Below, piece by piece: positions 3,301 to 22,426 of a stretch of 38,140 nucleotides of DNA (position 1 is the stretch's first letter; each line of letters opens with the position of its first letter). A program made the translations under genes and the position numbers. The notes under the pieces were generated by a model. That model was not told where the DNA came from. It made no database searches and was given only the letters and a program-made list of their open reading frames with translations. The stretch comes from an uncultured Planctomycetaceae bacterium (lineage in GTDB: Bacteria; Planctomycetota; Planctomycetia; Pirellulales; UBA1268): positions 1 to 38,140 of the forward strand of contig CAJXFK010000012.1 in NCBI GenBank assembly GCA_913052575.1, given 5' to 3'.

Positions 3301-5476
3301 CCTGCTGATACTTTTCAATAAAAGTAAATTGCTTCTGAGAATCCCGTTCGGCAGGGCTCGCCAGCATTGCGAGGCTTCGAAAGCTGCGGTAATACCGTCG
3401 GCATGAAGTAAGTAAGTCTTTTATAAAACTTGGCTGAAGTGTTGAGGGTTTTTGCTGGTCTGCTTGTATTTGTGCTTCCCGTGTCCACCAATCAAGAAGA
3501 TAAGGCAATTCTGAGTTGAGTTGATCAAGTGTTTTGAGGACCTGCCACCGCCGAGTAAGTTCACTTTTCAGTACTTTGAAATCATTGTGTACCTGTGCAG
3601 CGAGATCAACCGCGTCCCGCATGGAATCTGAGTCACCCACAAAGGTGAGGTCGATTGCTCTTCTGAGCATGTCCATAGCCTGTTTAAAATTTCGTTGATC
3701 TGCCGGTGAAGAGTGGAGCCGTCTAGATCGGCCAATTGCGATGTTCCGTGAATCTGCGACACACTGAATAAGTTTTGGAAAGAGTGAAGGGGAACGGCTC
3801 CAAGCGTCATTCTGACTCCATTCTAAGAGCATTCTGATGAAATGGAGTTGCGCAGAACTAAAAGAATCATTATCTGGAGAAGGCCCGACGTAATCGAGCC
3901 AACGCCGAAGGTAAGGGCGACTAATATCTTTCCCCGAATCCATTCGCAATAAAAGAAGTTGCCATGCCTGTTTTAAGCGATCCTGCCATACATTGATATC
4001 ACCTGTCGTGGTTGCGACAGATTGTTTTGAATCTTCAAGTAGCTTGTCAATTGCCTCTAGCTCTGCCCGCTGATCACTTTCTGGACTCTCAGTCAGTTGG
4101 GCCAATTCCTGGTCAAGCAGTACATACTCTAAAGAAGTGATGGGGCGTTGAAGCCTGCTTTCAAGTTGCTCAGCAAACGCATCGTTCACGCCTTGTATTT
4201 TCGATGTGGCAATGCCGTAGTGTCGTAGCCGCTCCGAACGAAGTAAAAGATTTTGATATGTGCCCCATAAGACAGGTCTTGTATTTTTTCGTAATTTACG
4301 GATTTCATCAACAGCGTTCCACCGTTGTGTCAACCAACTGATGTCAGGTATTGATAGAGATTTGATATTGAGTGTACCTCTTGGTCCTTTAGACCAACTC
4401 AACATCACGCTGTCTGACTTGATGGAAGTTTTGAGACCTGGAGAAGATGTACCAAGCAGTTTCGGTGTTTGACGTGACCCAAAGACTGTAGTTGCAAAGT
4501 GATCAACTTTATTTTGAAGGTATTGGCTGAGTTCAAGTAGGGAAACTTGTCCGTCACTATTTCCATATGGTTTTGCATCGGCAACTCCTTGAAGGCCTCT
4601 AGCGAAGTGCGTTGTGAACGAAGAACCACCAAGGTATTCGCTTGTCAATATTCTTTGACCGGCTGAATAAGGCAACATGACCCATAGTCGATCATGATTT
4701 CCTTGATCAACTATTGTCTCTACAGCTGCAGGAAATCCTGTTCCAGCGAGACCTGATGGCCATGACTGTTCATCTTTCCCGCAGTCTAAGACAGTCACTA
4801 CATTGATATTTGGTTGAACAGCAGCACGAATGCCAGCTAGAAGTCGTTCTACTGAAATGAAGTCGGCATCCGAAAGCGCCAGTGGTTGAGCACTTTTAAG
4901 TGGAGGCACGAGAAAAGGTTTACCGGTTTTATCAATGGCTGCAATGGCGGTTATGTAGACCAATACGGTGTTGCGATCCGGCCCACCAGGACGAGCTTCT
5001 TTGAGTGTTCGTGTGATGTAAGGCATGAAATCTGTGCCGGTCGTGAGTTCTCCAAATGCCGAGCTGATGTCACTAACAGTTGCAGCCATGGGCGCAAAAA
5101 ATCCATTTCCTGGAGAATTGAGGTCAAGAAGAAGTTTTTTGTCTTCTTCTACCAAAGGCAGTGGGCCAAAGGGGGCTTGATAGTTCGTTGCAAATGCGGT
5201 GACTATTGGAATAGGCCTGTGAAGTGTCAACAAAAGTTGCACAAGAAAGACAAGCACTCCGATCGTTGCAGAGGTAATGAATAAACGAGAAGTCCAGAGC
5301 AGAACCCGCTCAAGGATCGTTCGCTGGAAGTCAGAACTCCTCCATGATTTTGAAGGGCTCGAGTCGTTGTTGAGGAGGCTTTGTTCAGGTATATAATCTG
5401 CACCGTCAGACATTTTTGCCTGGCTTTTAGTTCGCCACGATTGCGGTTTCGAAGAGCTTTTTTTATCTGGACCCAT
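350..5476 (-). CDS. Giant (1708 aa) single-TM protein: N-terminal TM, degenerate caspase-like (peptidase C14-like) domain, long helical middle, vWA domain with intact MIDAS, C-terminal beta-rich region
   Basis: ORF track. TM around aa 62-84 (LFITSATIGVLVFLVQLLL). Caspase-like fold features: VLVYITAIAAID, VVTVLDCGKD, SAGQRILTSE...SSFTTHFARGLQGVAD...DGQVSLLELSQYL. vWA: AIIFDCSGSMG (DxSxS), GGETPLYRAI, VLVVTDGAND. Confidence 0.85.
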   Translation of the reverse strand: MGPDKKSSSKPQSWRTKSQAKMSDGADYIPEQSLLNNDSSPSKSWRSSDFQRTILERVLLWTSRLFITSATIGVLVFLVQLLLTLHRPIPIVTAFATNYQAPFGPLPLVEEDKKLLLDLNSPGNGFFAPMAATVSDISSAFGELTTGTDFMPYITRTLKEARPGGPDRNTVLVYITAIAAIDKTGKPFLVPPLKSAQPLALSDADFISVERLLAGIRAAVQPNINVVTVLDCGKDEQSWPSGLAGTGFPAAVETIVDQGNHDRLWVMLPYSAGQRILTSEYLGGSSFTTHFARGLQGVADAKPYGNSDGQVSLLELSQYLQNKVDHFATTVFGSRQTPKLLGTSSPGLKTSIKSDSVMLSWSKGPRGTLNIKSLSIPDISWLTQRWNAVDEIRKLRKNTRPVLWGTYQNLLLRSERLRHYGIATSKIQGVNDAFAEQLESRLQRPITSLEYVLLDQELAQLTESPESDQRAELEAIDKLLEDSKQSVATTTGDINVWQDRLKQAWQLLLLRMDSGKDISRPYLRRWLDYVGPSPDNDSFSSAQLHFIRMLLEWSQNDAWSRSPSLFPKLIQCVADSRNIAIGRSRRLHSSPADQRNFKQAMDMLRRAIDLTFVGDSDSMRDAVDLAAQVHNDFKVLKSELTRRWQVLKTLDQLNSELPYLLDWWTREAQIQADQQKPSTLQPSFIKDLLTSCRRYYRSFRSLAMLASPAERDSQKQFTFIEKYQQAADKNFKKLLNSYLDHCRNLAAAAPDSPQTLGAIRRALLTPLIPAGTRIQLLMRSNQLEQQLIEEYAKNFARVTKPIKQSTESNFEQGSVRVDGSFSFPVTAQFLDDVPQQNRLPSSTEEFAAYVGLQSSVLRKVSRNFDEDFSKIKTQVNRAAQQNSDNSKTLLAILEGASVDNRRHALLVCDQLKFITGKEHDPEITYFANLTYRRLIRLSELTLDDFWNAIAPGSEPFCLVKSRRLLSIATIVTDKYGAKRDDLLEQEFEERLSDAEVSIEEFSRIELSPRRITLAPLSSDLPASLSIKLEPSSPGIPGGVATVWLAPGAESEPLPTLIKDSSSKPITQLPVCLYDNTKPESWKIDAAISRRLEENEVPALDFVVWYRGHKMVQGVPVVSATASRMTQWHTQSSDLSKITVHGDASQTQAVAIIFDCSGSMGRRMMDGRTRLDAGRAAVQQVLDNLVSAGDWDVSLWLYGHRTQWSRDEKGNYSSSLTDLGQKAKDTAKKNDQPFNLVPGDDVEQVLPMQPLTQGVALEIDSILSPISPGGETPLYRAISEAIGTDFDGSHSAIPGHVLVVTDGANDQSGGQFTTAPGVTRQLAQKNLRRSIPLRIDIIGFALESNGMERAMRMAEVRDVAHNSGGKFYEATDPAALLKSLRDSFRLLQWRVSGPNAVNKTLHLEETCTLPRSIPRSIVNYDAFLETGPRPPSRRFAAENNTSLDLYVTNGGRSIEFRRYDGGTEQGLRDSKSGLVDPIDSRRKSFFGVHLASRTMNDVRIPISIQNDEANSYSQRPTSIWVEVQPLKQDKPIGIPYTFYDMTLQKNRSVPVFDLIAPQWPPLATKALVKAWFRFDQVNPDLLILVNDLSEEVEKEFSFPGLPGSKILVTRKKPQSKNIIEVSVVEEHPAEQSSHLPLLKAVVSGASLSASHMVEPDICRIRHTFLIQATNGRISDNVRLEFTDQQRLIAGATSTISDGGMPLVIPIPAQ

Positions 5477-5563
5477 AACAGTTTCTGCGATGAAATTGAG
5501 TTGAATGAAGTGTCATGTGATGTTGGCTTTTTATTATTTGAACGACATGAAGATTTCTGTTTC

Positions 5564-7267
5564 TTATCTGTTTTGTAAGGCGTTGGGACGATTTTTTACA
5601 ATGAAAAAATCATGGACAAACTGTATCAAAACCGCGAGTGTTATCAGTGTTGCGGGAATACGTAGCCATGTGACTAGTCGAGGTGCTTGTAATGCAGCGG
5701 TATTCTGCTCGGTGTGCTTTTCGCTAGATTCAGACGATGGGTTTCTATGAGCAACGACTTTATTGTTTTGTCCTGGTACGACCATGGTTTTTGTTGATGG
5801 AATTCGAGGTGCGGCGATGGTGTGGTTAGATTTTGTAGCCGTAGCATTTGGAAGAGCAGGTCTCGGTAGTTTTGGTTGACTTTGAACAATTTTTGCTGCA
5901 GGTTTGGTGAGTGAGTGAGACGAAGGTAACCCAATGCCAGCCCATCTCGGATTGTTTTCTAGAAATGATCGTTGATGTTCGGTGCTTCTTGGTGGTAGCT
6001 GAATGTTGTGAATTGAGTTCTGTGTGCCAGCAGATGCATGTTGTTGCAGGGTCGAGTCATTGATATGAGTCTGGTTAGAAGATTTGTTCGTCCTGTTTAC
6101 CGGGCTTTCAGTAGATGCCTGTCTAGTATTTATCCATGGGTGAGGGATTATCTCAGCGTAGCGATCTTCTTGTTCAGTATTGTTGGAGGGGGTAGATCGT
6201 TTTGATCGGCGTAATAGAACACTTTTTATTGCCTGTCGGACTGGTTTTTCCGACACGGCTTGTGGCGATGGTGGTGGTAGTTGTTCTACAGGGAATTGAA
6301 GAGATTCTGGGATGGCCGCGGGAGTAGGCTGTTGATCAGAGTTGAAATCATCAGGAGGAATAGTAAAAAGTGGTCGGTCAATAAAACATGGTTCATTATC
6401 GTCGCTATATGGTAATTCGCGATCAGTTACGATGGGCAATTCTCGTACGACTTGTGAATTAAATCCACTAGCAAACTGTTGGCAGTCGCAAGCTTGGCAA
6501 GCCTGGAGTGCTAATTCTGCAACCGTCCGGACCCGTTCACTTGTTTCAAGAAAACATCCGTTTTCGTCACGTCCATGGGCTAGCTGTTCGAGTTTCTTTC
6601 TCATGTCTGGGCTGCAACACGGTCCGTGTCCATTTCCACAGGGACATTCTTCTTTTGAAGGATCTTTGCAAACTGGTTTGCCTGTGATATGGGACATGAC
6701 TTTCTCTTGACACTCTTTCATTTTCTTGACACAGACACGCTCTTTTGGTGGTGCTTTTCCAAAAATACGATCAATGAAGTCACAGAACTTCTTCTCGATA
6801 GTTTTTTTAAGATCATGACAAACTTGAATACATCCAAGTGCTTTTCGTGTTGACTTTTTTTGTTCTCTCGACTGACACCCACTAGCAGTTTTGAGTGCAG
6901 CTAGTACCGCAGCGTATCGTACGGGTTCATCAGGATCGCCCATTGCAGCAACGATTGCTGGGCCGACTTCTGGATGTTCAGGAGAGCAGCCCATATTGGC
7001 AAGGTACTCCAAGGCCTTTTTCTTTTTGCAGATTTTATGTTTGGCAGCTTTTGCTTTAGCGGCTGCTTTAATTGCAGGGTTTTGAGAGTATTGGTCAGCA
7101 CCGATGCCAAGAGAGCTCCAGATAGTTGTCGGTGCTTCTTGCGCGTGCGATGTCAGTGTTGTCGTGTTAATTAAAATCATGACAACGAAAAGTCTGCGAA
7201 GGCACTGGTGTACGACACAGCACGTCAATAACGGCATCCATGATTTTTCCGTGTTCATTCTGTGCAT
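5564..7267 (-). CDS. Cys-rich HEAT-repeat-like exported protein (567 aa) with N-terminal signal, Pro/Ser/Asn-rich middle and C-terminal TM
   Basis: ORF track. Signal-like N-terminus (RLFVVMILINTTTLTSHAQ), HEAT-like segment (EVGPAIVAAMGDPDEPVRYAAVLALK-type), many Cys (CPCGNGHGPCC, CQACDC), C-terminal TM (LRIPATLITLAVLIQFVHDFFIV). Start codon uncertain. Confidence 0.75.
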   Translation of the reverse strand: MHRMNTEKSWMPLLTCCVVHQCLRRLFVVMILINTTTLTSHAQEAPTTIWSSLGIGADQYSQNPAIKAAAKAKAAKHKICKKKKALEYLANMGCSPEHPEVGPAIVAAMGDPDEPVRYAAVLAALKTASGCQSREQKKSTRKALGCIQVCHDLKKTIEKKFCDFIDRIFGKAPPKERVCVKKMKECQEKVMSHITGKPVCKDPSKEECPCGNGHGPCCSPDMRKKLEQLAHGRDENGCFLETSERVRTVAELALQACQACDCQQFASGFNSQVVRELPIVTDRELPYSDDNEPCFIDRPLFTIPPDDFNSDQQPTPAAIPESLQFPVEQLPPPSPQAVSEKPVRQAIKSVLLRRSKRSTPSNNTEQEDRYAEIIPHPWINTRQASTESPVNRTNKSSNQTHINDSTLQQHASAGTQNSIHNIQLPPRSTEHQRSFLENNPRWAGIGLPSSHSLTKPAAKIVQSQPKLPRPALPNATATKSNHTIAAPRIPSTKTMVVPGQNNKVVAHRNPSSESSEKHTEQNTAALQAPRLVTWLRIPATLITLAVLIQFVHDFFIVKNRPNALQNR

Positions 7268-7496
7268 TACTGTGAAATACAGGCTCGTTTATCCGTGTCG
7301 AGCGCATCCATGCTGCTCTTCTGGAAGGTTGGGAGACAACGAACTCCCACCTTTCATTTGTTATCGGTACTTGAAGTCTGCCGAATGATGCATGCAGAAG
7401 GGCCAACGGTCACCTTACTATGGAAGACTGTGACGATGAGGTAAGGCTGGGTGGCAACGCGGCAGTCTGTCGATCGTATCGTCTCAAATGAAATAT

Positions 7497-10400
7497 TTAT
7501 TGCATCTTAAGAGCAATCGTTGCTGGTGGGGCAGGGGATGCAGGCAGTGTAATTTTCATTAAATCTGACCGTCTTGTTGTGTTTCGAATAGCACCCTGCG
7601 CAGAGACGGAGTATTCGCCTGGCTCTAAGTTAGTAAACTGGAATTCACCTTTCTTTCCAGTCTTGACGGTTCGTTCTCCTGCAGGCCCTGTAAGGCTGAC
7701 AGAGACATCTGGTTCACCCTTCCCGTCAAGGGTGACACGACCAATAATATCGTTATTCGGACTGGCTGGTTTTGCGGCAATGTCAAGCCAGACACGATTT
7801 GGTGGGCTGCTCAATCCAACTTTATCAACAGCGCGTATGAGTAGTGGAAGTCGAACACCTGGTGATAATTTTTCCGTTTTAAGATTAATTTCATATCGAA
7901 CGTCACCAAGCCAAACCGCGGGCTCCCATTTTTCTGGTTTCCCAAGCCCTTTTATATCTACGGCCCATTCAACATTTGCAAGTCCAGAAACTCCTGGTCG
8001 AACACGATCTGGTGCGATAAAAAATCCATCTGATACATCATCAGCTACTCGTATTGGAATCTTAAGTTCTCTACCTACGATTACTGACGCTGATGGTGGT
8101 GAATCAATCTGGGGGGCTGTTCCGTCAAAGACAATTGTCCTGCTGTCAGTTGCACTTGTCTGTCTACCAGCGAATGAAACTCGTGCGATAGCAGTGACAT
8201 CAACATTGGAAAAGCCCTTTCCACTCGCCTCTACTTTCCAGTCAGAGACTTCAGTGGTGACTGAAAGTTGTTTCAGTTTTTTAGGCATCTTGAAAGTTAT
8301 TTGTCGGTCATTTCTTCCAGACCATGCAATCTGTTCACCAGCTCGGCTAGCAGACCCAACACTGATTGGACGAAAGACAATATCAATGGAACCGCTGTCA
8401 CCACGTGCGGTTTGAAAGGTGTCAGCAGGGGCATCGACTTCGAGGGAGAAGGGAATGACGGCAGTTGGTGAACGGACAAGTGTGCGCAGTGTTTCTGGTT
8501 GTTTTATACGAATGCTTCTCCAGTCATACTGGGGGTATTGAGCAACCTTGTCAGTTGTAGGCGAACATTCTAAGGAATAAATGAGAGCGCGAGGATAATC
8601 ATTGATATCAAGAGCAAAGTAAGCCTGTCCACGATCTGGACCAGTCCATGTTGCTATAGCAAAATCTGATAACGTCGACTTTTGAATGCGTATGTCGGGT
8701 TTTCTAGAGACAACAGAAGGCATAGTTTTAATTTGAGACTGATTGCGGCTCGGTGCAAGTAGTGGTTTGAGCGATGCGACAAGGCCTGCCGGTGGAAAGG
8801 CTTCAACTGCAGGAGAAAGTGGACGCAAAAGGACCCGTATTTCACGACGGCTGGCGTCATAGACGGCATTTGAATCAACGAAATGTCTAGGGTGAATTGG
8901 CGTTAGATGTATTCGAAAAACTATTTTGTTCGTTGTTCCAATCTGCGTGTAATCTTCTACAACGACCGCAAGTTCACTTCCCACTTGAATGTCTTTTTTT
9001 TGTTTTTCCGGCGCATCTGGTGAGGGGAGTGCTCCTTTTGTTTCAGGTTCCGAAATATCTTTTTCCGGTTCGTTCTGTTTCTCACCACTCTCATTTTCCT
9101 GGTCGCTTTTCTCTGCAGGAGGAGCAAGCTTAACCCTCGTTACCCCGGTGTCTGATTGAAGGGTTATATTCTTGGCGACTAGTATTGGCTTTAGTGATTT
9201 TTCTTTTTGATTAATTGCTGCGGCAAGTGCTTGAAAGGTTTCCAAGGCGGTTGTTTTAATGAGATCATTTTGTGCCGAAAATACCTGCACTGTAACCTGC
9301 TTTTTGATGTCAGAGAGATTTTCAATTCCTAATTCCCACTCTGTGGTGCCAGATGGCCATGGACGTAGGGTAAGTGTTGGCGCGGTTGATGCACGGCCAA
9401 TTCCAGTGGAATCAATGGGTTTGTTTGCTTTGTATGCAATATGAGTCCATCCGTTTGAATCTTTTGGACCGACAACGGTAAGAGGATGACCACGTGCGGC
9501 AAGGACAATGTCACGACTGTTGAGTAACGGTAAAACAATTTCTGCACACGTATTCTTGGTGCCTGCATGTAGGGTCATTTGAATTTTTGCAGACTGATCT
9601 TTCGTGAATAGGGTTGAGGTTGCAAGACGCTTTACCTCGAAGCGTGCTTGATTGCCCCTCCAACCAAGTTCTGATGCTGAGAATTTTATATTTCGGCCTA
9701 TTAGATCACCACTTAATCGAGACAGTTGAAATACAGCGGGATCGAATGAAAAAGAGACTTGGTCCTCGAATATCTCTTTGCTTGGGCCCTCGTAGGTAGC
9801 ATTGATGCCGATGCGGTCTTCATCAAATGTATTGTTTGCGATTTCAAGAGTGAGCGGTAACCTTTCGGGCAAATGGAGGTTCGGAGGTGGAAGGATTACT
9901 TCGCTATTAGCAGCAAAGGCATCCCGCCAGTCCAGTGAACGTAAAGCACCAGCCAGACAGTCGTTCTTAATCCGGTCTTGGGGATCACTAAACTCACGAG
10001 ACGTTGAAAGGGACTTAAGTTTTTGGAAAATCTTGGCAGTTACCCTGCCCAGTCCAAGTACTTTGTCAATTAGCTTATCGTTATCTTGTAAAGTCGAGAT
10101 CTTAGAAAGATCTTCGAGGTTGGTTTGTGCCTCTTGTATGTCCTCGCCGAGCTGCAAGATCATTTCGGGAGCATTGTCTTTTGCACTGAAGCCTAGTGCT
10201 ACCGAAAAGAAATCGAGTTGTAGGTTTACTAATCGCCTTATCTGCAAAAGGTCTGATTCTGTAAGCAAGCGTTTTGTTCTTATGGCTGCGTGCGACGCGG
10301 GAGTGAGTGCATTGGTAGTAAGTGCAGGTTTTTTTCTGGTCCCTAATAAGTACTGTTTTTTTAGGCGACTTCTAGTCGACTGGGTGATCGCAGGTGAGCC

Positions 10401-12611
10401 AAGGATTCTAGTTAGTTCGTGATATGCCGTTGTTGGTTCGTCTGGAGTACCACCCAATAACGTCGTGGTTGTTGTATCAATAAACTCCCTCAGTGATCCA
10501 TTTTTATGTAATAACAGTTGCGTTTGTGAATCAAGTAGGTTCATTAGCCGCCGGTCGTTCGTTTGTTGGTTGCTGTAGGTGTTTATTAAGTGAGTTGCGG
10601 CTGTGACTTCATCAAGGCAATTTCGAATTACTTGCTCGTCTACGGTCGAGGGCAGGTTGCCTCCTGAGAGTCGACCATTGAGCTCTATCGCATCATTCGT
10701 AGAAAAGATTGCATCATTTCTCGCTTGGAGAAGCTGGCCTACTTTTTCAGGAAGATTGAGCCAGGGTTCTTGCACTTGAGAAGCCGTTCCCGATTCAATT
10801 GCTTCATCAATTATGGCCGCGGTAGAAGACTGCGATGACATGTCATTGCCCAAACTTTTTTTTGCGTCAATCTCTTGAAGCGATCTTGTAAGAGACTTCA
10901 GGAATGATCTTGCTTCATCACTTCTCTTGCCACCTTCTAGTTCGGTAAGTTCAGCGAGCGCAATGTAATGACTTGCTCCGTTGAGTACGTGAGGCGCGTA
11001 GTCTTTTAAACCAATCTTGAGTGTGCTGTTGCGTTGGGGGCGTCGGCCTATATTTTCGAGTAGTTGCCAAATATCAACAACAGTGTTGACTCGAGGCTTC
11101 TTGGATTTCGGGTCACTACTCTTTGGGCTATCTGTCGAGTCCTTTTTTGTCGAACTCTTTTTATTCGATTTTTGTGGGCTTTCCGGTTGCACACCACCTT
11201 CCTGAGGTGTGTTGTCTTGAAGAGGAGATTCTTCTACCTGGCTCTTGTCATCTTGAGATGAGCTCGCACTATTGTTCTGCTGAGAATCTGATTTTTTATT
11301 CTTTGGTTGGGTCGTGTTCACCTGACTTTTTTCAGGCAACGGCTTGTCGAGTTCATCTTTTGCTTCAGAGTCAGGAGATGCTGTCGGGGTGTTGGCTGTT
11401 GCAGTGGCCTTAGCTGCCGGCTCTGAATTTTCGTTAGTCAGAGGTTGTTGCTTCTGGGTTAATTTTGTTTGATCCGAAGAGCCCCCTGAGAACCATTTTG
11501 ATAGCCATGTACTACCAGTATCAAACGTTCGTGTAGGCGCACGAATGAGACGAATATTCGGAGGGATTTCATCAATCGGGATCCTGCCAGACCCAATTTT
11601 CCAGATCACCGGATGTTGGCTGTGTCGACCACCGGTGGTTGCGCGCGACCATGCATATGTGACTATATGTACAAATCTAGCGAGTTCATCGAGTTCGATG
11701 ATTCCGTCTGCGTCTCCCCACGGGCTTTTATCTGCTTCGCCAAGTAGGGCGAGTTCAAAGGCTTTGCTAAATAGACTCCGGTTGTCGCTCAGGCTTACAT
11801 GAGAGAACTCCAAAGAATCGTTGGATGTAATAAGCCAACTGTCACCGACAGCGAGGTGTTTTTTTCCATTGCTTAACGCAGCAAGTTCTGTATCTAATTT
11901 ACTGGGTACAAAATTACCAAGTGTTCCGAGCCTAGGGTCCCAAGAAATATTGCCCAGATCCATAGCGATGAGCGTTGTGTTGTTGCTGCCGGCTCCAAGC
12001 GAGTCGAGAACATGACTGCAGCGGACCAAGCCACTTGGCGAACCACCTTCTAAAGAAAAGTCGGCGGCGGCAAGTTGGCAATGGTTTCTAGTTGGGGAAC
12101 CTTCTTCGGCAGTTGAGGAAATAAAAGACTGAGCCCTCACGTACGCCAGAAGGACATCTTTTTGCCGAAGTTTGAAGTCCTGGATTTTGCCAACGAGTTG
12201 ATCTCGTATGGCATCTGATGTTTCGTAATTTGATAGTCGAACAACACCACGCCCTGTAGCCGGGCTGCAACGTCCGCTGAGCACTTTTTGGATACCAGAG
12301 ATATCTAGATCTCGATATGCAATTGGTTGTAATCCAGCTTGATAGTTGTCAATCGCAAGAGTGACGCATGTCGTTTGCCAGGTCGTGAGCGGAGCAATAC
12401 TGATGAACGCAATTGTGATAATAGCAACGAGTGTCGCTGTCGTGAACATAATGCGGCGGGCCCAGGGGTCACCGCCTACTTTTTCTTTTGACCGATTCGT
12501 ACCTCTCCAGTTTTTTGCATCAAACTTATTTGAATCTGACGGCATTGTCTCAGAGCCAATGTTTACATTCGTCTCTGGGAGTGTTGATTTAGATTCAGGG
12601 GTGTCACTCAT
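7497..12611 (-). CDS. Giant (1704 aa) single-TM protein: degenerate caspase-like domain, low-complexity S/K/D/E/P linker, helical region, Ig-like/beta-rich region, C-terminal carboxypeptidase-regulatory-like domain
   Basis: ORF track. TM aa ~54-74 (MFTTATLVAIITIAFISIAPL). Caspase-like layout: VLLAYVRAQSFIS ... NRSLFSKAFELALLGEADKSPWGDADGIIELDELARFV. C-terminus IIGRVTLDGKGEPDVSVSLTGPAGERTVKTGKKGEFQFTNLEPGEYSVSAQG. Confidence 0.83.
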   Translation of the reverse strand: MSDTPESKSTLPETNVNIGSETMPSDSNKFDAKNWRGTNRSKEKVGGDPWARRIMFTTATLVAIITIAFISIAPLTTWQTTCVTLAIDNYQAGLQPIAYRDLDISGIQKVLSGRCSPATGRGVVRLSNYETSDAIRDQLVGKIQDFKLRQKDVLLAYVRAQSFISSTAEEGSPTRNHCQLAAADFSLEGGSPSGLVRCSHVLDSLGAGSNNTTLIAMDLGNISWDPRLGTLGNFVPSKLDTELAALSNGKKHLAVGDSWLITSNDSLEFSHVSLSDNRSLFSKAFELALLGEADKSPWGDADGIIELDELARFVHIVTYAWSRATTGGRHSQHPVIWKIGSGRIPIDEIPPNIRLIRAPTRTFDTGSTWLSKWFSGGSSDQTKLTQKQQPLTNENSEPAAKATATANTPTASPDSEAKDELDKPLPEKSQVNTTQPKNKKSDSQQNNSASSSQDDKSQVEESPLQDNTPQEGGVQPESPQKSNKKSSTKKDSTDSPKSSDPKSKKPRVNTVVDIWQLLENIGRRPQRNSTLKIGLKDYAPHVLNGASHYIALAELTELEGGKRSDEARSFLKSLTRSLQEIDAKKSLGNDMSSQSSTAAIIDEAIESGTASQVQEPWLNLPEKVGQLLQARNDAIFSTNDAIELNGRLSGGNLPSTVDEQVIRNCLDEVTAATHLINTYSNQQTNDRRLMNLLDSQTQLLLHKNGSLREFIDTTTTTLLGGTPDEPTTAYHELTRILGSPAITQSTRSRLKKQYLLGTRKKPALTTNALTPASHAAIRTKRLLTESDLLQIRRLVNLQLDFFSVALGFSAKDNAPEMILQLGEDIQEAQTNLEDLSKISTLQDNDKLIDKVLGLGRVTAKIFQKLKSLSTSREFSDPQDRIKNDCLAGALRSLDWRDAFAANSEVILPPPNLHLPERLPLTLEIANNTFDEDRIGINATYEGPSKEIFEDQVSFSFDPAVFQLSRLSGDLIGRNIKFSASELGWRGNQARFEVKRLATSTLFTKDQSAKIQMTLHAGTKNTCAEIVLPLLNSRDIVLAARGHPLTVVGPKDSNGWTHIAYKANKPIDSTGIGRASTAPTLTLRPWPSGTTEWELGIENLSDIKKQVTVQVFSAQNDLIKTTALETFQALAAAINQKEKSLKPILVAKNITLQSDTGVTRVKLAPPAEKSDQENESGEKQNEPEKDISEPETKGALPSPDAPEKQKKDIQVGSELAVVVEDYTQIGTTNKIVFRIHLTPIHPRHFVDSNAVYDASRREIRVLLRPLSPAVEAFPPAGLVASLKPLLAPSRNQSQIKTMPSVVSRKPDIRIQKSTLSDFAIATWTGPDRGQAYFALDINDYPRALIYSLECSPTTDKVAQYPQYDWRSIRIKQPETLRTLVRSPTAVIPFSLEVDAPADTFQTARGDSGSIDIVFRPISVGSASRAGEQIAWSGRNDRQITFKMPKKLKQLSVTTEVSDWKVEASGKGFSNVDVTAIARVSFAGRQTSATDSRTIVFDGTAPQIDSPPSASVIVGRELKIPIRVADDVSDGFFIAPDRVRPGVSGLANVEWAVDIKGLGKPEKWEPAVWLGDVRYEINLKTEKLSPGVRLPLLIRAVDKVGLSSPPNRVWLDIAAKPASPNNDIIGRVTLDGKGEPDVSVSLTGPAGERTVKTGKKGEFQFTNLEPGEYSVSAQGAIRNTTRRSDLMKITLPASPAPPATIALKMQ

Positions 12612-12803: not shown

Positions 12804-14273
12804 ATGCGTCATTTGCAGGTCCATTGGTCTGAAGGAATGTTTCTGCGTCCGCAACATTTTCAGGCGGCTGATCGTCACCGAGAGGAACAGCAATCATTAT
12901 CAGTTTCTGTGAATGATCCCTGTTGTTATGGCTTCTCAATTTTAGAGATAGATCAAAGAGCGCTTGCGAATAGGCAACTAGAAATACGCAGTTGTCAGGC
13001 TCGCTTTAGAGACGGCACGCTTCTTTCTTTCGAGCAGGGAGAAGAGCCAGACCGGATCAGTCTTGAGCCGGCAGCAAAACAGGTAGAGGCTCTTTCTGCA
13101 TCGCTCTCAAATATCCAAGAAACAACCGACGATATTCGAGTATATCTTGGTATCCCAAGATATGGACCATTTACCTCGAATGCCTCGGCTTTTGCCGAGA
13201 CTGAAAAATGCCGAAGCAAGATCGTACGGCAGGAAGTGGCTGATGATACCTCTGGTACAAATGAACAGGAGGTAGAGTTCAGACAGTCGAACGTACGGGT
13301 CCTTCTTTCAACGGACGACCTTTCTGGTTATGAACTCCTGCCGTTAGCTCAAATACGTGGACTTGCAAGCCGGGAGACTGCTCCTGAGATTGATGCTAGT
13401 TTTTTTCCGCCTGTTCTTGCTGTATCTGCGTGGGCTCCTCTTTGCCATGACATAATTCGCAGCACGTACGACATGATCGGTAAAAAAGTCGAGGTACTTG
13501 CGGAGCAAGCGACAACCCGGCAAGTAGGCTTTTCAAGTTCTGAGCCAGGCGATCTTGATCGACTTTTCATGTTATCGAAACTTCTTGAAAGCCAGGGATC
13601 TCTGAAGGTTTTAGCGTTTGCCCCGGGTATTCATCCAAGAGAAGCTTACACTGAGCTTTGCCGCCTTGCTGGTTCACTCTCGGTATTCGAGCCAGATCGG
13701 CGTCTCGCTGAGATCATGCCCTATGACCATGATAATTTGGCAACAATTTTTCATTCAATCATGAAACAAATTGAGAGAATGCTGTCTCGCGTAACGAATC
13801 TTGAGTTTGATCAGCGCTACTTTGTTGGTGCTGGCCATGCAACACTTGCGGCAACTCTTGATGCGAAATGGCTTCAATCAGACTGGGAATGCTATGTTGG
13901 TGTTTTAAAGGGTGATATGACTGAAGAGACGTGTCACCGTCTTTTGACGGGAGATAGTCACTTGGACTGGAAGCTCGGAAGCGCTGAGGATGTTGATCGT
14001 ATATTTCGTCTGGGTTTGCCTGGGCTAGAGCTGCGTACAGCAGAGCAGATTCCACGGCCTCTTCCAACGCGTGGTGGTTGGCTTTATTTTCGTATCAACA
14101 CGAATTCGCCCGCTTGGCAATCAATACAAGTGAATCAGGCGATGGGCATTCGGCTGAGAGACACACTCATAACAAACCCAGAGCAATTACCTGGTGATCG
14201 CCGCGTGGAAGTTGTCTTCGAAGGTCGCAAAAGTGCAATTGAGTTTGCTATCTTTGCTGTCCCGACCCTTTGA
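12804..14273 (+). CDS. tssK: T6SS baseplate subunit TssK (ImpJ/VasE)
   Basis: Characteristic N-terminus VHWSEGMFLRPQHFQAADRHREE; 489 aa; first gene in T6SS order. Confidence 0.95.
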   Translation: MRHLQVHWSEGMFLRPQHFQAADRHREEQQSLSVSVNDPCCYGFSILEIDQRALANRQLEIRSCQARFRDGTLLSFEQGEEPDRISLEPAAKQVEALSASLSNIQETTDDIRVYLGIPRYGPFTSNASAFAETEKCRSKIVRQEVADDTSGTNEQEVEFRQSNVRVLLSTDDLSGYELLPLAQIRGLASRETAPEIDASFFPPVLAVSAWAPLCHDIIRSTYDMIGKKVEVLAEQATTRQVGFSSSEPGDLDRLFMLSKLLESQGSLKVLAFAPGIHPREAYTELCRLAGSLSVFEPDRRLAEIMPYDHDNLATIFHSIMKQIERMLSRVTNLEFDQRYFVGAGHATLAATLDAKWLQSDWECYVGVLKGDMTEETCHRLLTGDSHLDWKLGSAEDVDRIFRLGLPGLELRTAEQIPRPLPTRGGWLYFRINTNSPAWQSIQVNQAMGIRLRDTLITNPEQLPGDRRVEVVFEGRKSAIEFAIFAVPTL

Positions 14274-14296: not shown

Positions 14297-14914
14297 ATGA
14301 CACAAGATTTTCAATCTGCAGCAATTCCTGTAATTCTCGCCATAATCGGTCTGGCGAAACGTGCGGCGAGTGGGGAAGCTGGACCTGTTGAAGCTGAAAG
14401 AGCTGCTCTGCGTGTTTCTTTCGAAAAGGCTGCGGCCATCTGCCGAGGCCCCGCAGCAGAAGATTGGCGGCTCGCAAGTTATGCTTTGGCATCAGCAGTC
14501 GACGAACTTCTCATTGTCGACATTACTTGGTCAGGACAGGCTTGGTGGGAAAATCATGCCATGGAGGTAGAGCTGTTCGGTACGCGAAAAAGGGCGACCG
14601 AATTTTTCACTCTTTCAGAAAAGGCTGCATCTTTGCCAAGAGGGAATGCATTGCAGGTCTTTGTCGCTGCTGTAGTTATGGGTTTCCAGGGGACACACAG
14701 GGAACGTCCGGATGCTTTAGAGGCATGGCTTAGAACGCATAAACAGGGCATAAAACTATCGCTAGATCGTCCGGTAACACCTTCATCAGGACCAGAGGTA
14801 GCAGGCGGTGGTCCGCTCACCGGACGTATTCTTCTCTTGTGGAGTTTATTTTCGTCTCTTCTGCTTGGGGCGTTCTTTATTGTCACGGCTTGGTCCGTCT
14901 TTTATTTGCTGTAA
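14297..14914 (+). CDS. tssL: T6SS membrane protein TssL (DotU/IcmH family), C-terminal TM, no peptidoglycan-binding extension
   Basis: 205 aa; EDWRLASYALASAVDELLIV...W; VELFGTRKRATEFFTLSEKA; C-terminal TM ILLLWSLFSSLLLGAFFIVTAWSVFYLL. Confidence 0.88.
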   Translation: MTQDFQSAAIPVILAIIGLAKRAASGEAGPVEAERAALRVSFEKAAAICRGPAAEDWRLASYALASAVDELLIVDITWSGQAWWENHAMEVELFGTRKRATEFFTLSEKAASLPRGNALQVFVAAVVMGFQGTHRERPDALEAWLRTHKQGIKLSLDRPVTPSSGPEVAGGGPLTGRILLLWSLFSSLLLGAFFIVTAWSVFYLL

Positions 14915-14958: not shown

Positions 14959-16356
14959 ATGGATACGCTACTGAGTTTCCTGCTTTCGCCCTTGCGTCTC
15001 ATCTTTGGCCCCATCCAATGGTTTCGGCAAGCATCTTTGGCGGCCCGGCTGGCGTTTCTGTTTGGTGTCTTTCAAATTGTTATTGTTTTGCTTGCCACAA
15101 GTGCTGTGCTTTTTGCTGGCGAATGGGTTGTGCTTCAGTTGTGGTGGAGTCCGGGCAAAATATTTCTTTTGCTTCTGTTATTTATTAGCGTGCCAATACT
15201 GGTCTATCGTTCTGCCTTGCTTTGGTGTGAGATCCCCACAGCAAGATGGCCAGATGTCACGAGTGCTTGGAATACAATCATTCAAGATTTGAAAAGACAA
15301 GATGTCGATCTTGAAGAGTGGCCAGTCTATTTAGTTCTAGGCTCAGATGGTAATGGGCTTGAGTCAGCACTCTTTCACTATGCAGCGACACCGTTGCTTT
15401 TGTCAGGAAGTCCTGGTGCAGGCGCACCTTTACATGCATATGCAACAAAAGAAGCAGTGTATATTACCCTAAACAGTATTGGTCACACTGCTGCTGCAGC
15501 AAAAGCGTGTCGGAATCAAAAAAGCGATTCCGATCACCAGTATGGTAGGAAGGAAGAGGCATCTCGTTTAGATGCATTGTGCAGCCTTCTAGTCATGGAA
15601 CGGGCACCCTTCGTACCGATCAATGGAATTTTATCACTTGTGCAGGTTGATTATGCACATCTGGTAAGTCAACCACTTACGAAATTAGCCATCGCTCAGG
15701 CACAAGATTTTCAGCGTATAACACATCGTTTAGGCGTTCGAGCCCCGGTCACGTTTTTAGCCGTAGGCCTTGAGAATGAGGCTGGCTTTGCTGATTACGC
15801 CGAATTGCTATCAGCAGAGCAGCAACCAAAAGTGAATGCTGACCAGACGGTTAGTAAGCCAACTGGTCGTGAAGAGGCGAAAGGTGTTCGTTTTCCAGTC
15901 GGTATTCGACCAACGAATGATCAACTTACTGCGGTAGCAGCCAACGCGATGGGACCATTGACTGACAATATTGCGGAGATGGTGCTGGATCCTGCAAGAC
16001 TGCCAGAACAACAGCGTCGCATTCGTTTGCTTGAACTGCTCTGTCGTATTCGTTTACACGGAGCGTCTCAGTTGAATGAGGTGCTCCAGCAAGTTTTTTC
16101 AAATAATCTAACTACTGCGGATTTACCATTGCTAAGCGGAGCGTTTGCTGGAGCCCTCGGCCCTGAACCGGAGAAGCAAGGTTTTTTAGCTGGTGTCTTA
16201 TCACATTTGAATGATCAGCAAGCGGAACTTGACTGGACAAGAAAGAGCCTCAGAAGTGACGAACGGGCTCGTCGTGCAGCAAGAATTCTATTCGGGCTGA
16301 CAATGGCCTTATTGCTTCTTTCTTCCGGCATGCTTTGGTGGAAGTTGGTGGCGTGA
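14959..16356 (+). CDS. tssM: Short TssM/IcmF-like inner-membrane protein (465 aa), degenerate P-loop, lacks periplasmic C-terminal domain
   Basis: Two N-terminal TMs, WPVYLVLGSDGNGLESALF at the usual Walker A position, PFVPINGILSLV, RLGVRAPVTFLAVGLENEAGF (TssM-like), single C-terminal TM then stop. Confidence 0.75.
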   Translation: MDTLLSFLLSPLRLIFGPIQWFRQASLAARLAFLFGVFQIVIVLLATSAVLFAGEWVVLQLWWSPGKIFLLLLLFISVPILVYRSALLWCEIPTARWPDVTSAWNTIIQDLKRQDVDLEEWPVYLVLGSDGNGLESALFHYAATPLLLSGSPGAGAPLHAYATKEAVYITLNSIGHTAAAAKACRNQKSDSDHQYGRKEEASRLDALCSLLVMERAPFVPINGILSLVQVDYAHLVSQPLTKLAIAQAQDFQRITHRLGVRAPVTFLAVGLENEAGFADYAELLSAEQQPKVNADQTVSKPTGREEAKGVRFPVGIRPTNDQLTAVAANAMGPLTDNIAEMVLDPARLPEQQRRIRLLELLCRIRLHGASQLNEVLQQVFSNNLTTADLPLLSGAFAGALGPEPEKQGFLAGVLSHLNDQQAELDWTRKSLRSDERARRAARILFGLTMALLLLSSGMLWWKLVA

Positions 16357-17018
16357 GCAAGTTTCCAAAGAAGCATGAGCGAGTGTTTCTTTTGCATCAG
16401 GGTCTGGTTCGTGCTCTTGCGTGGCGATTGCATCGCCGAACCGGAAGATACGTTGAAATTGATGATCTTATTGCATACGGTCAGATTGGTTTACTTGAGG
16501 CAATTCGGTGTTTTGATGAAGAACGTGGCATTAAGTTTTCGACGTATGCATGGTATCGAGTGCGAGGTGCAATTTTCGATGGCCTTATGAAGATGTCATG
16601 GTTTAATCGAATTGCATTTGAGCAGGGCGAATACGAATTCGAAATAAAGGAAAAATCATCGAAGCCAAAAAAGACGCTTCAGTCAGAGAAAAAAGAAAGT
16701 CAAGATCGGTCAAGTATTCGTCGTCAGCAACAGCCGTCTTTGTCTGGTGGTTTTGATGGTAACGTGCCGGGCGATCTTAAAGGAGTTGATTCGGTAGTTG
16801 TTCACAGAGAGTTGCTGGCGTTTCTTAGAGATCTTGTGTCAAATCTTCCGGAAAAAGAAGCGCAACTCATCAAAGAAAAGTTTTTTGTGGGAAGAACTCT
16901 CACAGAGGCTGCCCGCCGTGTTGGCATTAGTGTTGCTTGGGCAAGTCGTCTTAATGCACGAACACTTGCAGATTTGCGAATCGTATTGGAGCAGTCTGGC
17001 TTTGCTGCAGGCGACTAA
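16353..17018 (+). CDS. Sigma-70 family (FliA/SigB-like) RNA polymerase sigma factor, regions 2 and 4
   Basis: Region 2: VRALAWRLHRRTGRYVEIDDLIAYGQIGLLEAIRCFDEERGIKFSTYAWYRVRGAIFDGL. Region 4 HTH: LTEAARRVGISVAWASRLNARTLADLR. ORF track begins at TTG 16335; GTG at 16353 overlaps the tssM stop as GTGA and is preferred. Confidence 0.88.
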   Translation: MSKFPKKHERVFLLHQGLVRALAWRLHRRTGRYVEIDDLIAYGQIGLLEAIRCFDEERGIKFSTYAWYRVRGAIFDGLMKMSWFNRIAFEQGEYEFEIKEKSSKPKKTLQSEKKESQDRSSIRRQQQPSLSGGFDGNVPGDLKGVDSVVVHRELLAFLRDLVSNLPEKEAQLIKEKFFVGRTLTEAARRVGISVAWASRLNARTLADLRIVLEQSGFAAGD

Positions 17019-17261
17019 TGAATGGCCATTCACCTTTCAGGATTGCCATGAACAAAGAGCGCTGTGGAGCATGTTGAAGCACTGCAATGGGGGCCGATTC
17101 ATGCCCAACACGTGGTCAAGGAAGCGATTAATACGTGCAATCGATACAAATGGAAAGACGAAGACTGCTCGAAGCACACGAACGTGTAATTTTTAGACTA
17201 TTTGGATGAAAACGAGTGTACTCTTTAGAGAAACTTTGCCAATTACGGAAAATAAAATGCC

Positions 17262-18413
17262 ATGACGCTCTCATTTGATTTTGACGTTGAAGGTTTCGCG
17301 GCTGCGATAAGTGAAGAGCAGCCCTGCGGGATGAATCTTCAGATAACTGACGAGGGCCGTGCAATTCGATCCAATCTACGGGACCTTCGGGAAGAGTCCC
17401 GTCGTCTCGAGAGGCGAGCAGATGAAGGGGATGAAAGTGAAGGTGGCTGGGCATCAGCTCGATCAACATGGACACAACTTCGAGATCAGTCTATCGAGGT
17501 ACTCACAAACAATTCAAAAGATCTCGATGTTGCAGCCATGCTCACTGAATCGCTTTGTCGTACGGATGGTTTTGCGGGGCTTCAGGCTGGCTTCCAGGTC
17601 ATGGGCCTGCTCGTGGAGGCTTTCTGGAACGAAGTTTATCCAGTTCCTGATCCTGAGGACGGTGTAACTGACGAAACTCTTATTATTGAAGAACGGGTAC
17701 TTCCAATCCAACGCTTAGCGGGTCTGGAGCTAGAGGGACTGTTGGTTCCCGGCATACTACACATTCCACTTGCCGTAGGTCGTTCAGATCAGTCGTATGG
17801 GTTGTGTCATTGGCGGAGTAGTCGGGAACTAGTTGGCGAAGACAACGAAGAAAAACTTCAACTTGCAGTTGATCGAGGAGGGGTATCTCCAAGTCAGTTT
17901 GAACAGGCAGTGTCGGAGACAGATATCGGAGAAATCACTGCTGTTTACAAGGATCTCCTTTCTGCAAATGAGACTTGGGCAATGCTTGTTGATGCGATTT
18001 CAGAAATGTCTGAAGGTAAAGCAGTTGTTCCTGCGAGTCAGATACGTGATATTTTCGAAGAATGCATTGATGCAATAAAAGTTTTTGCACCGAGTGCGAT
18101 ACCTCAAGAATCATCAGGAGATGAAGATCCAGCCGGTGTAGACGGACAAGAAAAAAATGAAGGAGATGCTGGAGGTCTCTACCCAGCCAACCGCGAAGAG
18201 GCATTTCAGCGGCTTGAGAAAATAGCTGATTATTTCGAAACGCATGATCCGCACAGCCTCGTGGCTGCACAAATACGGAATATCGTAAAACTTGGTCGAT
18301 TGTCGCGAGGGGAATATTACAAACAGCTTCTTCGTGATGAATCAGCACTCAGCCTCCTTTTCCGCGCAGCTGGTATGGATGAGCAAATCCCCGACAATAA
18401 TGATGGATACTAA
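17262..18413 (+). CDS. tssA: T6SS protein TssA (ImpA family)
   Basis: 383 aa; EEQPCGMNL near N-terminus, [52 protein letters not shown] is typical of ImpA-N; C-terminal [22 protein letters not shown]. Confidence 0.92.
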
Positions 18414-18553
18414 GAATATTTTTTAAGGTTCAGAAAAGGCAAGGGCTTGGCAGGCACCCTGAATCGTGTATTCTAAACGTTATTCGAGGTTGGTTTTCAG
18501 ATACACACCAGTCACAGCGGTCAGTCCACAACCGCTTCTTGAGGGAGGCAATA

Positions 18554-19117
18554 ATGCCGGAATCAGTTCACGGAAAACTTTCACGAGTCCGAAAGCCGCG
18601 AGTACATATCACGTACGAAGTTGAGACAGAGGGCGCTACGGTTGTCAAAGAGTTGCCATTTGTTGTTGGCGTGATGGGTGATTTTTCGGGCAATCCTACA
18701 GAGCCATTGAAACCACTGAAGGACAGGAAATTTGTCTCAATAGATCGTGACTCGTTCAGTGATGTCATGAGGCGAATGACGCCTGGAGTTGAGATGAAAG
18801 TCGATAACACACTAGCTGGCGATGGAAGTGAATTAGCCGTTTCACTTAAATTTTCATCGATGGAAGATTTCGAGCCGGCGAAAATTGTTGAGCAGGTGGA
18901 GCCACTTCGAAAACTTCTTGACACTCGAAACAAGCTTCGCGAACTCATGAGCGCTGTTGACCGAGCCGATGGTCTTGAAGATGAGATTGAAAAACTTTTG
19001 CAAAGTGACGACCAGCTGAAAGCGCTTGCTGGTGAGATTGGTGTTGGTTCAGGGGATGCAGCAGATTCGTCTGACTCTTCCAGTGATGATTCTTCTAGTG
19101 ATGGCGATGGTGCTTGA
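18554..19117 (+). CDS. tssB: T6SS contractile sheath small subunit TssB (VipA)
   Basis: [38 protein letters not shown] ... [19 protein letters not shown]. Start set at ATG 18554 after GAGGGAGG; ORF track starts at TTG 18539. Confidence 0.95.
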
Positions 19118-19174
19118 ATAGTTTAAGTCAAGCGAATGTGAAAATTTTTGAATGAGTCTCAAAGGAAAAATACA

Positions 19175-20671
19175 ATGAGCACAGGCGAATCACAGCAACA
19201 AGAGAGCGTTGCAGCAGAACAGTCATCTGCCGGGCTGCTTGACCAGATAACGACCATGATGCCTCGGGCGGTAGAAAAGCCTCGACGTAATGAACTCATT
19301 CGTTCTCTCGTTGAGGAGTCTTTGAAGGGTACTGTAAAGTTCGACAAAAATGTTGGAAAGACAATCACGAATGCAATGACCGCGATTGACGCCGCAATGT
19401 CGACGCAATTAGCAGCAATTATGCACAACGATGCCTTTCAAAAGCTTGAAGGTTCTTGGCGTGGTCTTCATCACCTTGTTATGAACTCAGAAACAGGGGC
19501 ATCACTGAAAATACGGGTCATGAATATTGGGAAGCGAGAGCTTTTCAAAGATCTTGATAAAGCTGTTGAGTTTGACCAAAGCCAAACATTTAAAAAGATT
19601 TATGAGGCAGAATTTGGTTCTCCTGGTGGTGAGCCATACGGAGCACTTATCGGTGATTATGAATTCACGAATCACCCTGAAGACATTGACACGCTTTCGA
19701 AAATGTCACAGGTTGCGGCAGCTGGATTTGCACCATTTCTTTCTGCAGCAGATCCGAAACTCATGGGGATGGACAGTTACTCAGAATTGTCGAAGCCACG
19801 TGATCTTGAAAAAATCTTTCTTGATGAGAGCTATGCGAAGTGGAGGAGTTTTCGTGATTCTGATGACTCTCGGTTTGCAGTTTTGACAATGCCGAGATCT
19901 CTTTCACGACTGCCATATGGGAAGAATACGAAGGTAGTCGAAGAGTTTGACTATGAAGAGGTTGAGCTTGACGAAAAAGGTAACTCAAAGCCAGTTGAGC
20001 ACGGTAACTACTCATGGATGAATAGTTCGTATGTTCTTGGTGCCCAGATGACCTCTGCGTATTCAAAATTCGGTTGGTGCACGGCAATTCGTGGAGCGGA
20101 AAATGGCGGTAAGGTTGAAGGTCTACCTGCTCATATCTTCACAGCCGATGATGGTGATCAGGCCATGAAGTGTCCTACAGAGATTGCTATTACAGATCGC
20201 CGTGAAGCTGAATTGTCCAAGCTCGGTTTCCTTCCGCTTTGTCACTACAAAAATACGGACTATGCCGTTTTCTTTGGCGCGCAGACGACGCAAAAGGCGA
20301 AAAAGTACGACAAGCCTGAGGCAACAGCGAATGCCGCAATTTCTGCTCGACTGCCGTACATTATGGCTACATCTCGTATTGCTCATTTCTTGAAAGTAAT
20401 TGCAAGAGATAAGATCGGATCATTTATGGAACGACAGGACTGTGAGGACTGGCTAAAGCGGTGGATAGCGAACTATGTGTCCACTGATCCGCACCCGAGT
20501 GATGATGTGAAGGCGAGATATCCTCTCGCGGAAGCAGAGATAAAGGTTGAGGATATTCCGGGTTCGCCAGGAAGCTATAACGCTGTGGCTCATTTGCGTC
20601 CGTGGTTGCAGTTAGAGGAATTAACATCAAGTCTGCGACTAGTCGCTAAGATTCCGGCTAAGAGTGGTTGA
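19175..20671 (+). CDS. tssC: T6SS contractile sheath large subunit TssC (VipB/EvpB), copy 1
   Basis: [75 protein letters not shown]. Start set at ATG 19175; ORF track starts at TTG 19148. Confidence 0.95.
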
Positions 20672-20758
20672 TAACTTGATCAGCAACGTGGTCTTAGGGG
20701 TTGTTAATCACTAACCTTAAGGTTCGTTGTTTGTAAGTGGCTTTCTCGGTCGAAGCGT

Positions 20759-22426
20759 ATGAATTCAATGAATCCGGACCGTGGGGTAGAAGCGTCTCTG
20801 GCAGTCCAAGCTCTGCCCGGCACAGAGAAAGCCGCTGATTTTCGCTCCTCTGCTAGTGCGCTCAATCCAGCGCTTCTGTCTCTCGCTGAAAGAGGGACGT
20901 CTGCGCTGGCGTCGATACGAGGTAGAGGCGAGGCGTCTATTCTTGCTTCTGACGACCTCAATCACGTTTTTCGGACGTGGGCGGCGTCACGAATCCTCTT
21001 AGGAAAGCAAGTTACTCGTAGTGAGATACTCTGCAAACTCGGTGAAGATGTCGCTGCTATCGACAAGGCACTCAATGTGCAAGTGGACACGATTTTACAC
21101 CATACTGCACTTCAGAAACTTGAAGGTAGTTGGCGTGGGTTATTTTATCTTGTGAACCAGGCAGAAGGGGCTAATTCAGACTCTGGGACAGGGGTTGGGG
21201 GCAAGCCGCGAGTCAAGGTTCGTGTTCTTTCTGTAAAAAAAAGAGAGTTGCGTAGAGATCAAGAAACAGCTGTTGAATTCGATCGTTCTGACTTGTGGCA
21301 AAAGGTCTATGAAAATGAGTTTGGAACCGCTGGAGGTATTCCGTACGGATTGCTGGTTTGTGATCATCAATTCAGTCACCATCCGGATGACGTAAGTTTG
21401 TTATCAGGAATGTCTGAGACAGCAATGGCAGCCTTTGCACCATTACTTGTATCGCCAGAACCCACAATTTTTGGAAGCGAACAATTGAATGATCTTGAAA
21501 ATCTCCCTAGGATCACAGATACACAAGCATCAAAACAGTTTATTAAATGGAAAGCATTACGTGAGCGTGAAGAATCAAGGTTTATCGGCTTGCCTTTACC
21601 GAGGGTGTTAGGTCGGCATGGATATAACGGTTTAATTGGGCACCCTAACGCTTTGGCAGCAGATGAACGGAGTTGGGAACAACGGGGGTTTCGGTACAAG
21701 GAAAAAACCGAGGCAGTCAACGGGTCCGGAAATCTTTGGATGAGTGGCGTATGGCCGTTCGCAAGTATTGTTATCAGAGAATTTGGTAGGTCTGGTTGGT
21801 TTGCAAACCTCCGGGGTGGTTCCCGTGGTGTTGGAGGTGGCGGGGAAGTAGCTGGACTTCCTAAGGATACTTTCTCTGGGTTTGAGAATTCAAATGTTCT
21901 CAGGGGGCCGACGGAGGTTAACATTCCATCAGATTTGGGGGAAGAGTTTGAACAGGCTGGAATGATACCACTTGAAGCGACGGGTTCAGATGGGCGAGCC
22001 GTTTTTCACTCTAATATGTCGCTTCACAAACCCAAACTTTTTGACGACCAAAAAATTTCAGAAAATGAGCGGCTTTCATCAATGATGCAGTATGTGCTCT
22101 GTGTCTCACGGTTTGCGCAGTATCTTAAAGTGATTCTTCGAGACAAGCTCGGAAGTTTCACTGAGGCTCCTCAAGCAGAAAAATTCCTGAGTGATTGGGT
22201 TCATCAGTATGTCAGTCCAGATGATCAGGCTTCAGATGAGACTCGAGCGAAAATGCCACTGAGGGCCGCTGAAATTGAGGTGCAGGATGATCCGGGGTCG
22301 GGCGGAACCATGAAAGTCGTCATGCGGTTACAGCCACATTTTCAGATTGATAGAATCGATTCGACCCTTCGTCTCATTTCAGCAGTACATTATGACCCTA
22401 ACAAGATGTCTTCTCGGAGAGGCTAG
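20759..22426 (+). CDS. TssC-family protein, copy 2 (divergent paralogue, 555 aa)
   Basis: [82 protein letters not shown]; colinear with TssC1. Confidence 0.92.
   Translation: MNSMNPDRGVEASLAVQALPGTEKAADFRSSASALNPALLSLAERGTSALASIRGRGEASILASDDLNHVFRTWAASRILLGKQVTRSEILCKLGEDVAAIDKALNVQVDTILHHTALQKLEGSWRGLFYLVNQAEGANSDSGTGVGGKPRVKVRVLSVKKRELRRDQETAVEFDRSDLWQKVYENEFGTAGGIPYGLLVCDHQFSHHPDDVSLLSGMSETAMAAFAPLLVSPEPTIFGSEQLNDLENLPRITDTQASKQFIKWKALREREESRFIGLPLPRVLGRHGYNGLIGHPNALAADERSWEQRGFRYKEKTEAVNGSGNLWMSGVWPFASIVIREFGRSGWFANLRGGSRGVGGGGEVAGLPKDTFSGFENSNVLRGPTEVNIPSDLGEEFEQAGMIPLEATGSDGRAVFHSNMSLHKPKLFDDQKISENERLSSMMQYVLCVSRFAQYLKVILRDKLGSFTEAPQAEKFLSDWVHQYVSPDDQASDETRAKMPLRAAEIEVQDDPGSGGTMKVVMRLQPHFQIDRIDSTLRLISAVHYDPNKMSSRRG

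Follow-up and report, generated by a model that had tools for sequence, protein, structure and literature searches.

Several group 3 sigma factors are held by anti-sigma factors, e.g. FlgM, RsiG, SpoIIAB, and RsbW. In the co-translated pairs SpoIIAB-sigmaF and RsbW-sigmaB, the regulator gene is located directly upstream of the group 3-like sigma gene and overlaps it. A sigma factor that governs a T6SS is described in Xanthomonas citri: EcfK (ECF43), an ECF sigma factor, is activated by the kinase PknS and turns on the T6SS (PMC13147305, PMC8999054, PMC8103513). PknS phosphorylates EcfK in sigma2 and in the non-conserved sigma2-sigma4 linker, which leads to activation of the T6SS (PMC13147305). 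Further T6SS regulators that have been reviewed comprise RpoN with VasH/Sfa2, RpoS, and RpoE (PMC10482370). Searches of the open-access literature yielded neither a T6SS sigma factor in Planctomycetes nor an account of T6SS control in Planctomycetota.

The present analysis concentrates on a sigma factor gene, denoted SIG, in a T6SS cluster on a stretch of 38,140 nucleotides (the window), with Planctomycetaceae MAGs among its closest named relatives. With a rough probability of 0.68, SIG is a T6SS-dedicated, ECF-shaped sigma factor that is normally co-translated with its cognate regulator, a small protein denoted SAP, and the family of the window (f1) has a derivative that does without SAP and is tied to tssM. 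SIG is probably a built-in on/off switch of the T6SS. All T6SS genes of the window lie on the + strand, in the order tssK-tssL-tssM-SIG-tssA-tssB-tssC1-tssC2-impE-tssE-tssF-tssG-clpV-hcp-hcp-vgrG-DUF6931. The genes around SIG are:

12804..14273, + strand: tssK (Pfam, NCBIfam)
14297..14914, + strand: tssL (DotU) (Pfam)
14959..16356, + strand: tssM, short (465 aa), IcmF N-terminal domain only, hydrophobic segment at the end (Pfam)
16353..16356, + strand: GTGA stop/start overlap of tssM with SIG
16353..17018, + strand: SIG, T6SS-associated sigma factor, 221 aa, sigma2 and sigma4, no sigma3 (ORF, Pfam, NCBIfam, structure model)
17262..18413, + strand: tssA (Pfam, NCBIfam)
18539..19117, + strand: tssB (Pfam, NCBIfam)
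19148..20671, + strand: tssC1 (Pfam)
20759..22426, + strand: tssC2, second sheath paralogue (Pfam)

A preliminary description of this DNA had placed a sigma factor ORF at 16353-17018 between tssM and tssA, which ORF calling, Pfam matches, and the neighbouring genes confirm. The GTGA overlap it reported is likewise present: the GTG start codon of SIG (16353-16355) overlaps the stop codon TGA of tssM (16354-16356). Since a TTG at 16335 is an alternative in-frame start that could open the ORF, we infer the GTG start, which is favoured by an equivalent NTGA overlap in 7/7 f1 relatives where tssM adjoins SIG.

Several features of the cluster recur in relatives. Short TssM proteins are also encoded in other planctomycete clusters, suggesting a reduced membrane complex, and a doubled tssC (19148-22426 in the window, consecutive large-subunit paralogues) is common among related clusters. 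The DUF6931 protein (33415-34020) that follows vgrG has counterparts next to vgrG or PAAR genes in numerous related T6SS loci (L092, L093, L104, and L111, among others). Beside the T6SS genes, the - strand harbors three ORFs at 350-12611. Two of these are very large, with 1708 and 1704 aa (weak vWA and carboxypeptidase-regulatory-like matches), and one has 567 aa; relatives of the second and third ORF of this set adjoin tssK in family members.

The SIG protein is divided as follows:

16392..16601, + strand: sigma region 2, residues 14-83 (Pfam PF04542, E 5.1e-13; confident helices in the model)
16602..16793, + strand: sigma2-sigma4 linker, residues 84-147, not conserved
16839..16979, + strand: sigma region 4, residues 163-209 (Pfam PF04545, E 9.9e-7; conservation)

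Judged by region 2 and the helix-turn-helix of region 4, SIG is a putative sigma70-family factor that would bind core RNA polymerase. Region 4 carries the recognition helix typical of the family (GIS..WASRL), the AlphaFold model has confident sigma2 and sigma4 helices, and both a Foldseek search with this model and a PDB sequence search recover sigma factors, including FliA and WhiG. PF04542 and PF04545 are both present in 55/55 SIG relatives, and Sigma70_r3 (PF04539) was detected by Pfam neither in the window SIG nor in any of the 55 family members. Since Sigma70_r3 was detected (6.5e-9) in a canonical FliA-type paralogue encoded elsewhere in the genome, the missing sigma3 cannot be put down to the method. 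The label FliA/SigB-like, which the preliminary description had used, is appropriate insofar as FliA/WhiG is the top NCBIfam match of the window SIG (3e-25), but the scores stay far below the curated cut-offs of both models (89 vs 190 bits for FliA_WhiG, 69 vs 234 bits for SigBFG), and SIG is therefore not a FliA orthologue. The window SIG also exceeds the cut-off of the broad sigma70-ECF superfamily model (73 vs 43 bits), with FliA_WhiG as its best family, and PF07638 (Sigma70_ECF) gives a weak match in 35/55 relatives; the tree described below holds no ECF sequences. SIG shows neither of the two marks of group 3, a sigma region 3 and a score above the curated cut-off, and with a FliA/SigB-like sigma2 and a sigma4 joined by a linker, without sigma3, it has an ECF-like architecture.

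The distribution of SIG was surveyed in 398 genomes of the class with at least 90% completeness, plus the window's own genome, with SIG called at E < 1e-55. Orthologues were found in 55/398 genomes, all 55 of which harbor T6SS genes; the tssB family is present in 142/398. The association between SIG and tssB has a Fisher p of 8e-25, a value that ignores shared ancestry and counts non-independent events. Two SIG genomes have no tssB match (53/55 do), and in both (G014, G023) SIG lies by tssA at a contig end. In 43/55, tssB follows SIG on the same strand at a distance below 4 kb; the remaining 12 are mostly contig breaks with tssKLM or tssA adjoining SIG, and include G250 and G354, where SIG is located at a contig edge. 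The T6SS cluster of G076 (L066) lies within 6 kb of SIG in opposite orientation, and in G042 (L051) and G295 (L078) a SAP-SIG pair is located away from T6SS genes. Around these two pairs (L051:8702-9933 and L078:8905-10049), no T6SS gene was found close by; the neighbours in L051 are tRNA synthetase genes.

The order SIG-tssA-tssB-tssC is almost invariant, with tssKLM upstream, divergent, or elsewhere. A search of the phylum retrieved this order from two further genomes, G462 and G498, which belong to other classes. SIG is spread over numerous families and no fewer than three classes. The dedicated transcriptional control that the preliminary description had suggested is thus well supported by comparison: SIG occurs only in genomes with T6SS genes and lies directly upstream of tssA-tssB-tssC, with L051 and L078 as exceptions to adjacency. 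Many T6SS genomes have no SIG (89 of the 142 with tssB), and in L098 (G010, same family) the gene order of the window is kept without it, with tssA next after tssM (236 bp); SIG is therefore not essential for a T6SS. The cluster of G010 represents a natural deletion. Within the genus, SIG was found in 0/9 relatives.

In the phylogeny, the SIG sequences form one clade (97/96) apart from the FliA-type sigma factors, with f1 nested inside (100/100). Six genomes with weak SIG matches (7e-26 to 1e-29) were set aside; one of them, L091, groups with the FliA-type sigma factors and was left out of the clade as mis-assigned. Among the matches of the phylum search at 1e-54 to 1e-40, L119 is a genuine SIG, and L121-L127, which have region-3-like sequence and no T6SS, were rejected. 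A sigma-like ORF without recognisable region 3 (L120:8854-9810, - strand; E 5e-50 to the SIG profile) lies on a contig without T6SS genes and could be an outgroup of SIG.

In nearly every examinable cluster outside f1, an unannotated small ORF of ~130 aa, SAP, is located directly 5' of SIG. Two examples are:

L066:9530-9922, + strand: SAP ORF
L056:10075-10464, - strand: SAP ORF

Its sequence pattern is LL..VL..T ... VA..L..DP....RL..LW..L. A profile of SAP matched in 47/398 genomes, once in each, all of them SIG genomes. These are 47 of the 48 SIG genomes outside f1, and SAP adjoins SIG except at contig ends; the sole genome missed, G144, has a weaker match (E 0.002) at the expected place. The profile search gave no match in the 7 f1 SIG genomes or the 343 SIG-free genomes, among the ORFs of the window, or in the window's own genome. 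The stop codon of SAP overlaps the start codon of SIG as NTGA in 24/42 cases, and nearly all other pairs are at most 15 bases apart. In f1, tssM occupies the place of SAP 5' of SIG, with the same NTGA overlap (7/7). The translational coupling to tssM that had been proposed for the window hence applies to f1 only, and elsewhere SIG is coupled to SAP.

The structure model of SAP is an all-helical bundle. Neither Pfam nor PHROGs gave a match to SAP, and a Foldseek search of the model against the PDB found nothing with E ≤ 0.001; in NCBIfam, matches are single and scattered, one of them weak to a ChrR-type anti-sigma factor (E 0.025, 1/39). SAP lies outside any known anti-sigma family of Pfam, NCBIfam, PHROGs, and the PDB. 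As to an anti-sigma factor, for which a search had been recommended, none is encoded in the window, but the related clusters have SAP, a strong candidate for such a partner. A second trait follows the same distribution. Outside f1, essentially all SIG proteins have a helical sigma2-sigma4 linker with the segments (R/K)YE..A..VL and W(L/F)...(T)..LA..YL; in a small number of them, such as L096, the second segment is degenerate. This second segment is missing from every f1 SIG, and the f1 orthologues have unrelated linkers, mostly shorter or Ala/Pro-rich. As f1 is nested in the SIG clade, it probably lost SAP and the linker helix, either at once or in succession. Their joint absence is a single event and thus suggestive, though no proof, of SAP binding to the linker.

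SAP is most likely a candidate anti-sigma factor or obligate cofactor that regulates SIG, and were it an anti-sigma factor, it would represent a new family. In the ancestral state we propose, SIG would be co-translated with the small helical SAP, which would regulate it in either of these roles, probably by contact with the helical linker. Active SIG would direct RNA polymerase to T6SS promoters, most simply that of the adjacent tssA-tssB-tssC sheath operon, and in the feed-forward logic envisaged here, the T6SS assembly genes would be transcribed only while SIG is active. With SAP and the helical linker gone and the start of SIG overlapping tssM, the output of SIG in f1 would probably be set by transcription and translation of tssK-L-M. 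The family f1 is therewith a natural case of a sigma factor that has lost its partner together with the possible docking helix of that partner.

A more specific version, which we put forward tentatively, regards SAP and SIG as an undescribed sigma/anti-sigma pair: SAP, from a new all-helical family of anti-sigma factors, would hold the sigma3-less SIG via its linker and free it upon T6SS assembly or attack, in the manner of FlgM and FliA; in f1, a direct link to the translation of tssM would have taken the place of this checkpoint. To a similarly doubtful degree, SAP might act in the opposite sense, as an obligate activator, chaperone, or assembly partner (a split sigma factor) from which the f1 SIG proteins would now be independent. 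The near-absolute pairing of the two genes and the lack of a known anti-sigma domain in SAP (Pfam, NCBIfam, PHROGs, PDB) speak for an activator; the upstream overlapping gene order, which resembles SpoIIAB-sigmaF and RsbW-sigmaB, and the persistence of a conserved sigma factor after loss of the partner point to an inhibitor, though both observations are still compatible with an activator.

Regarding the promoters on which SIG might act, a scan of the region for promoter-like sites yielded one:

18447..18474, + strand: sigma70-like site TTGGCA-N16-TATTCT upstream of tssB (scan; regional count not above chance)

Near SIG, the scan found no other promoter-like site on the + strand, and shuffled sequence contains sites of this kind in equal number. 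In the intergenic region between SIG and tssA (17019..17261, + strand), the scan found no promoter-like or terminator-like site on the + strand. Across genomes, SIG-positive clusters outside f1 show an enrichment of sigma70-like boxes upstream of tssA (z 3.7, n=34), which SIG-free clusters do not (z -0.5, n=14); in f1, where the sequences compared are related (n=6), the enrichment is upstream of tssB (z 8.1). The preliminary description had advised a motif search, which, applied to the sequences preceding tssA, tssB, and further genes, recovered no SIG-specific motif: de novo two-box motifs were little above shuffled sequence, some being ribosome-binding-site-like, and consensus scans for FliA, SigB, ECF, sigma54, and sigma32 gave no convincing enrichment, with only the sigma70-like boxes standing out. 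On this pattern, the sites enriched before tssA and tssB could be housekeeping sigma70 promoters.

These results bear on an unlikely alternative, according to which SIG is a true sigma factor, regulated by SAP where this is present, whose main targets are effector, immunity, or unlinked genes co-expressed with the T6SS. It would account for the missing SIG-specific motif upstream of the tss genes, for the sigma70-like sites, which suggest housekeeping transcription of the core, and for the SAP-SIG pairs located away from T6SS genes in G042 and G295. Against it, SIG is nearly fixed directly 5' of tssA-B-C in spite of cluster rearrangement, which points to the sheath operon as target. Under the preferred reading, a T6SS-dedicated SIG with SAP as its regulator, the confinement of both proteins to T6SS genomes and the fixed place of SIG by the sheath operon provide a direct, testable handle on T6SS control.

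Two further explanations are very improbable. The preliminary description had region 3 replaced by a K/S/Q-rich linker; the absence of region 3 was corroborated, while the Ser/Lys/Gln-rich stretch turned out to be peculiar to the window SIG when orthologues were compared and carries no conserved signal. Residues 106-135 of this linker have a pLDDT <50 in the AlphaFold model and are predicted to be disordered. A conserved role of the stretch was rejected, as it is unconserved in the nearest relatives. The window SIG might be switched on by Ser/Thr phosphorylation of this Ser-rich linker, since phosphorylation of the EcfK linker by PknS activates a T6SS (PMC13147305) and the linker of the window SIG is rich in Ser and Lys, yet the same lack of conservation argues against it. 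So does the Pfam scan of window proteins, which turned up no kinase and hence not the adjacent kinase gene that marks the EcfK/PknS system. That SIG is a sigma-like passenger of T6SS clusters, without regulatory role, would agree with the SIG-free cluster of the same order in L098, but hardly with conserved sigma2 core residues, a single clade without wider distribution, and a position fixed across families and classes.

Compared with the known systems, SIG shares with VasH/Sfa2, which act with sigma54 (RpoN), that a transcription activator inside the T6SS cluster is tied to cluster expression (PMC10482370); VasH/Sfa2 are enhancer-binding proteins for the unrelated sigma54, whereas SIG itself belongs to the sigma70 family. 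Among the group 3 sigma factors FliA, WhiG, and SigB, FliA/WhiG are most similar to SIG in region 2, but the SIG family is devoid of region 3 (0/55) and forms a clade separate from the genome's own FliA-type sigma factor. SAP lacks a kinase domain and any Pfam, NCBIfam, or PHROG family, and the SAP-SIG pair nevertheless has the upstream overlapping gene order of SpoIIAB-sigmaF and RsbW-sigmaB. EcfK and SIG both consist of sigma2 and sigma4 only and are encoded in a T6SS region; EcfK is required for T6SS expression, and its activity depends in an important way on the linker. The two differ in that ECF43 is paired with a Hanks-type kinase, whereas region 2 of SIG is FliA/SigB-like and its partner outside f1 is SAP. 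By analogy, SIG probably works like EcfK in outline.
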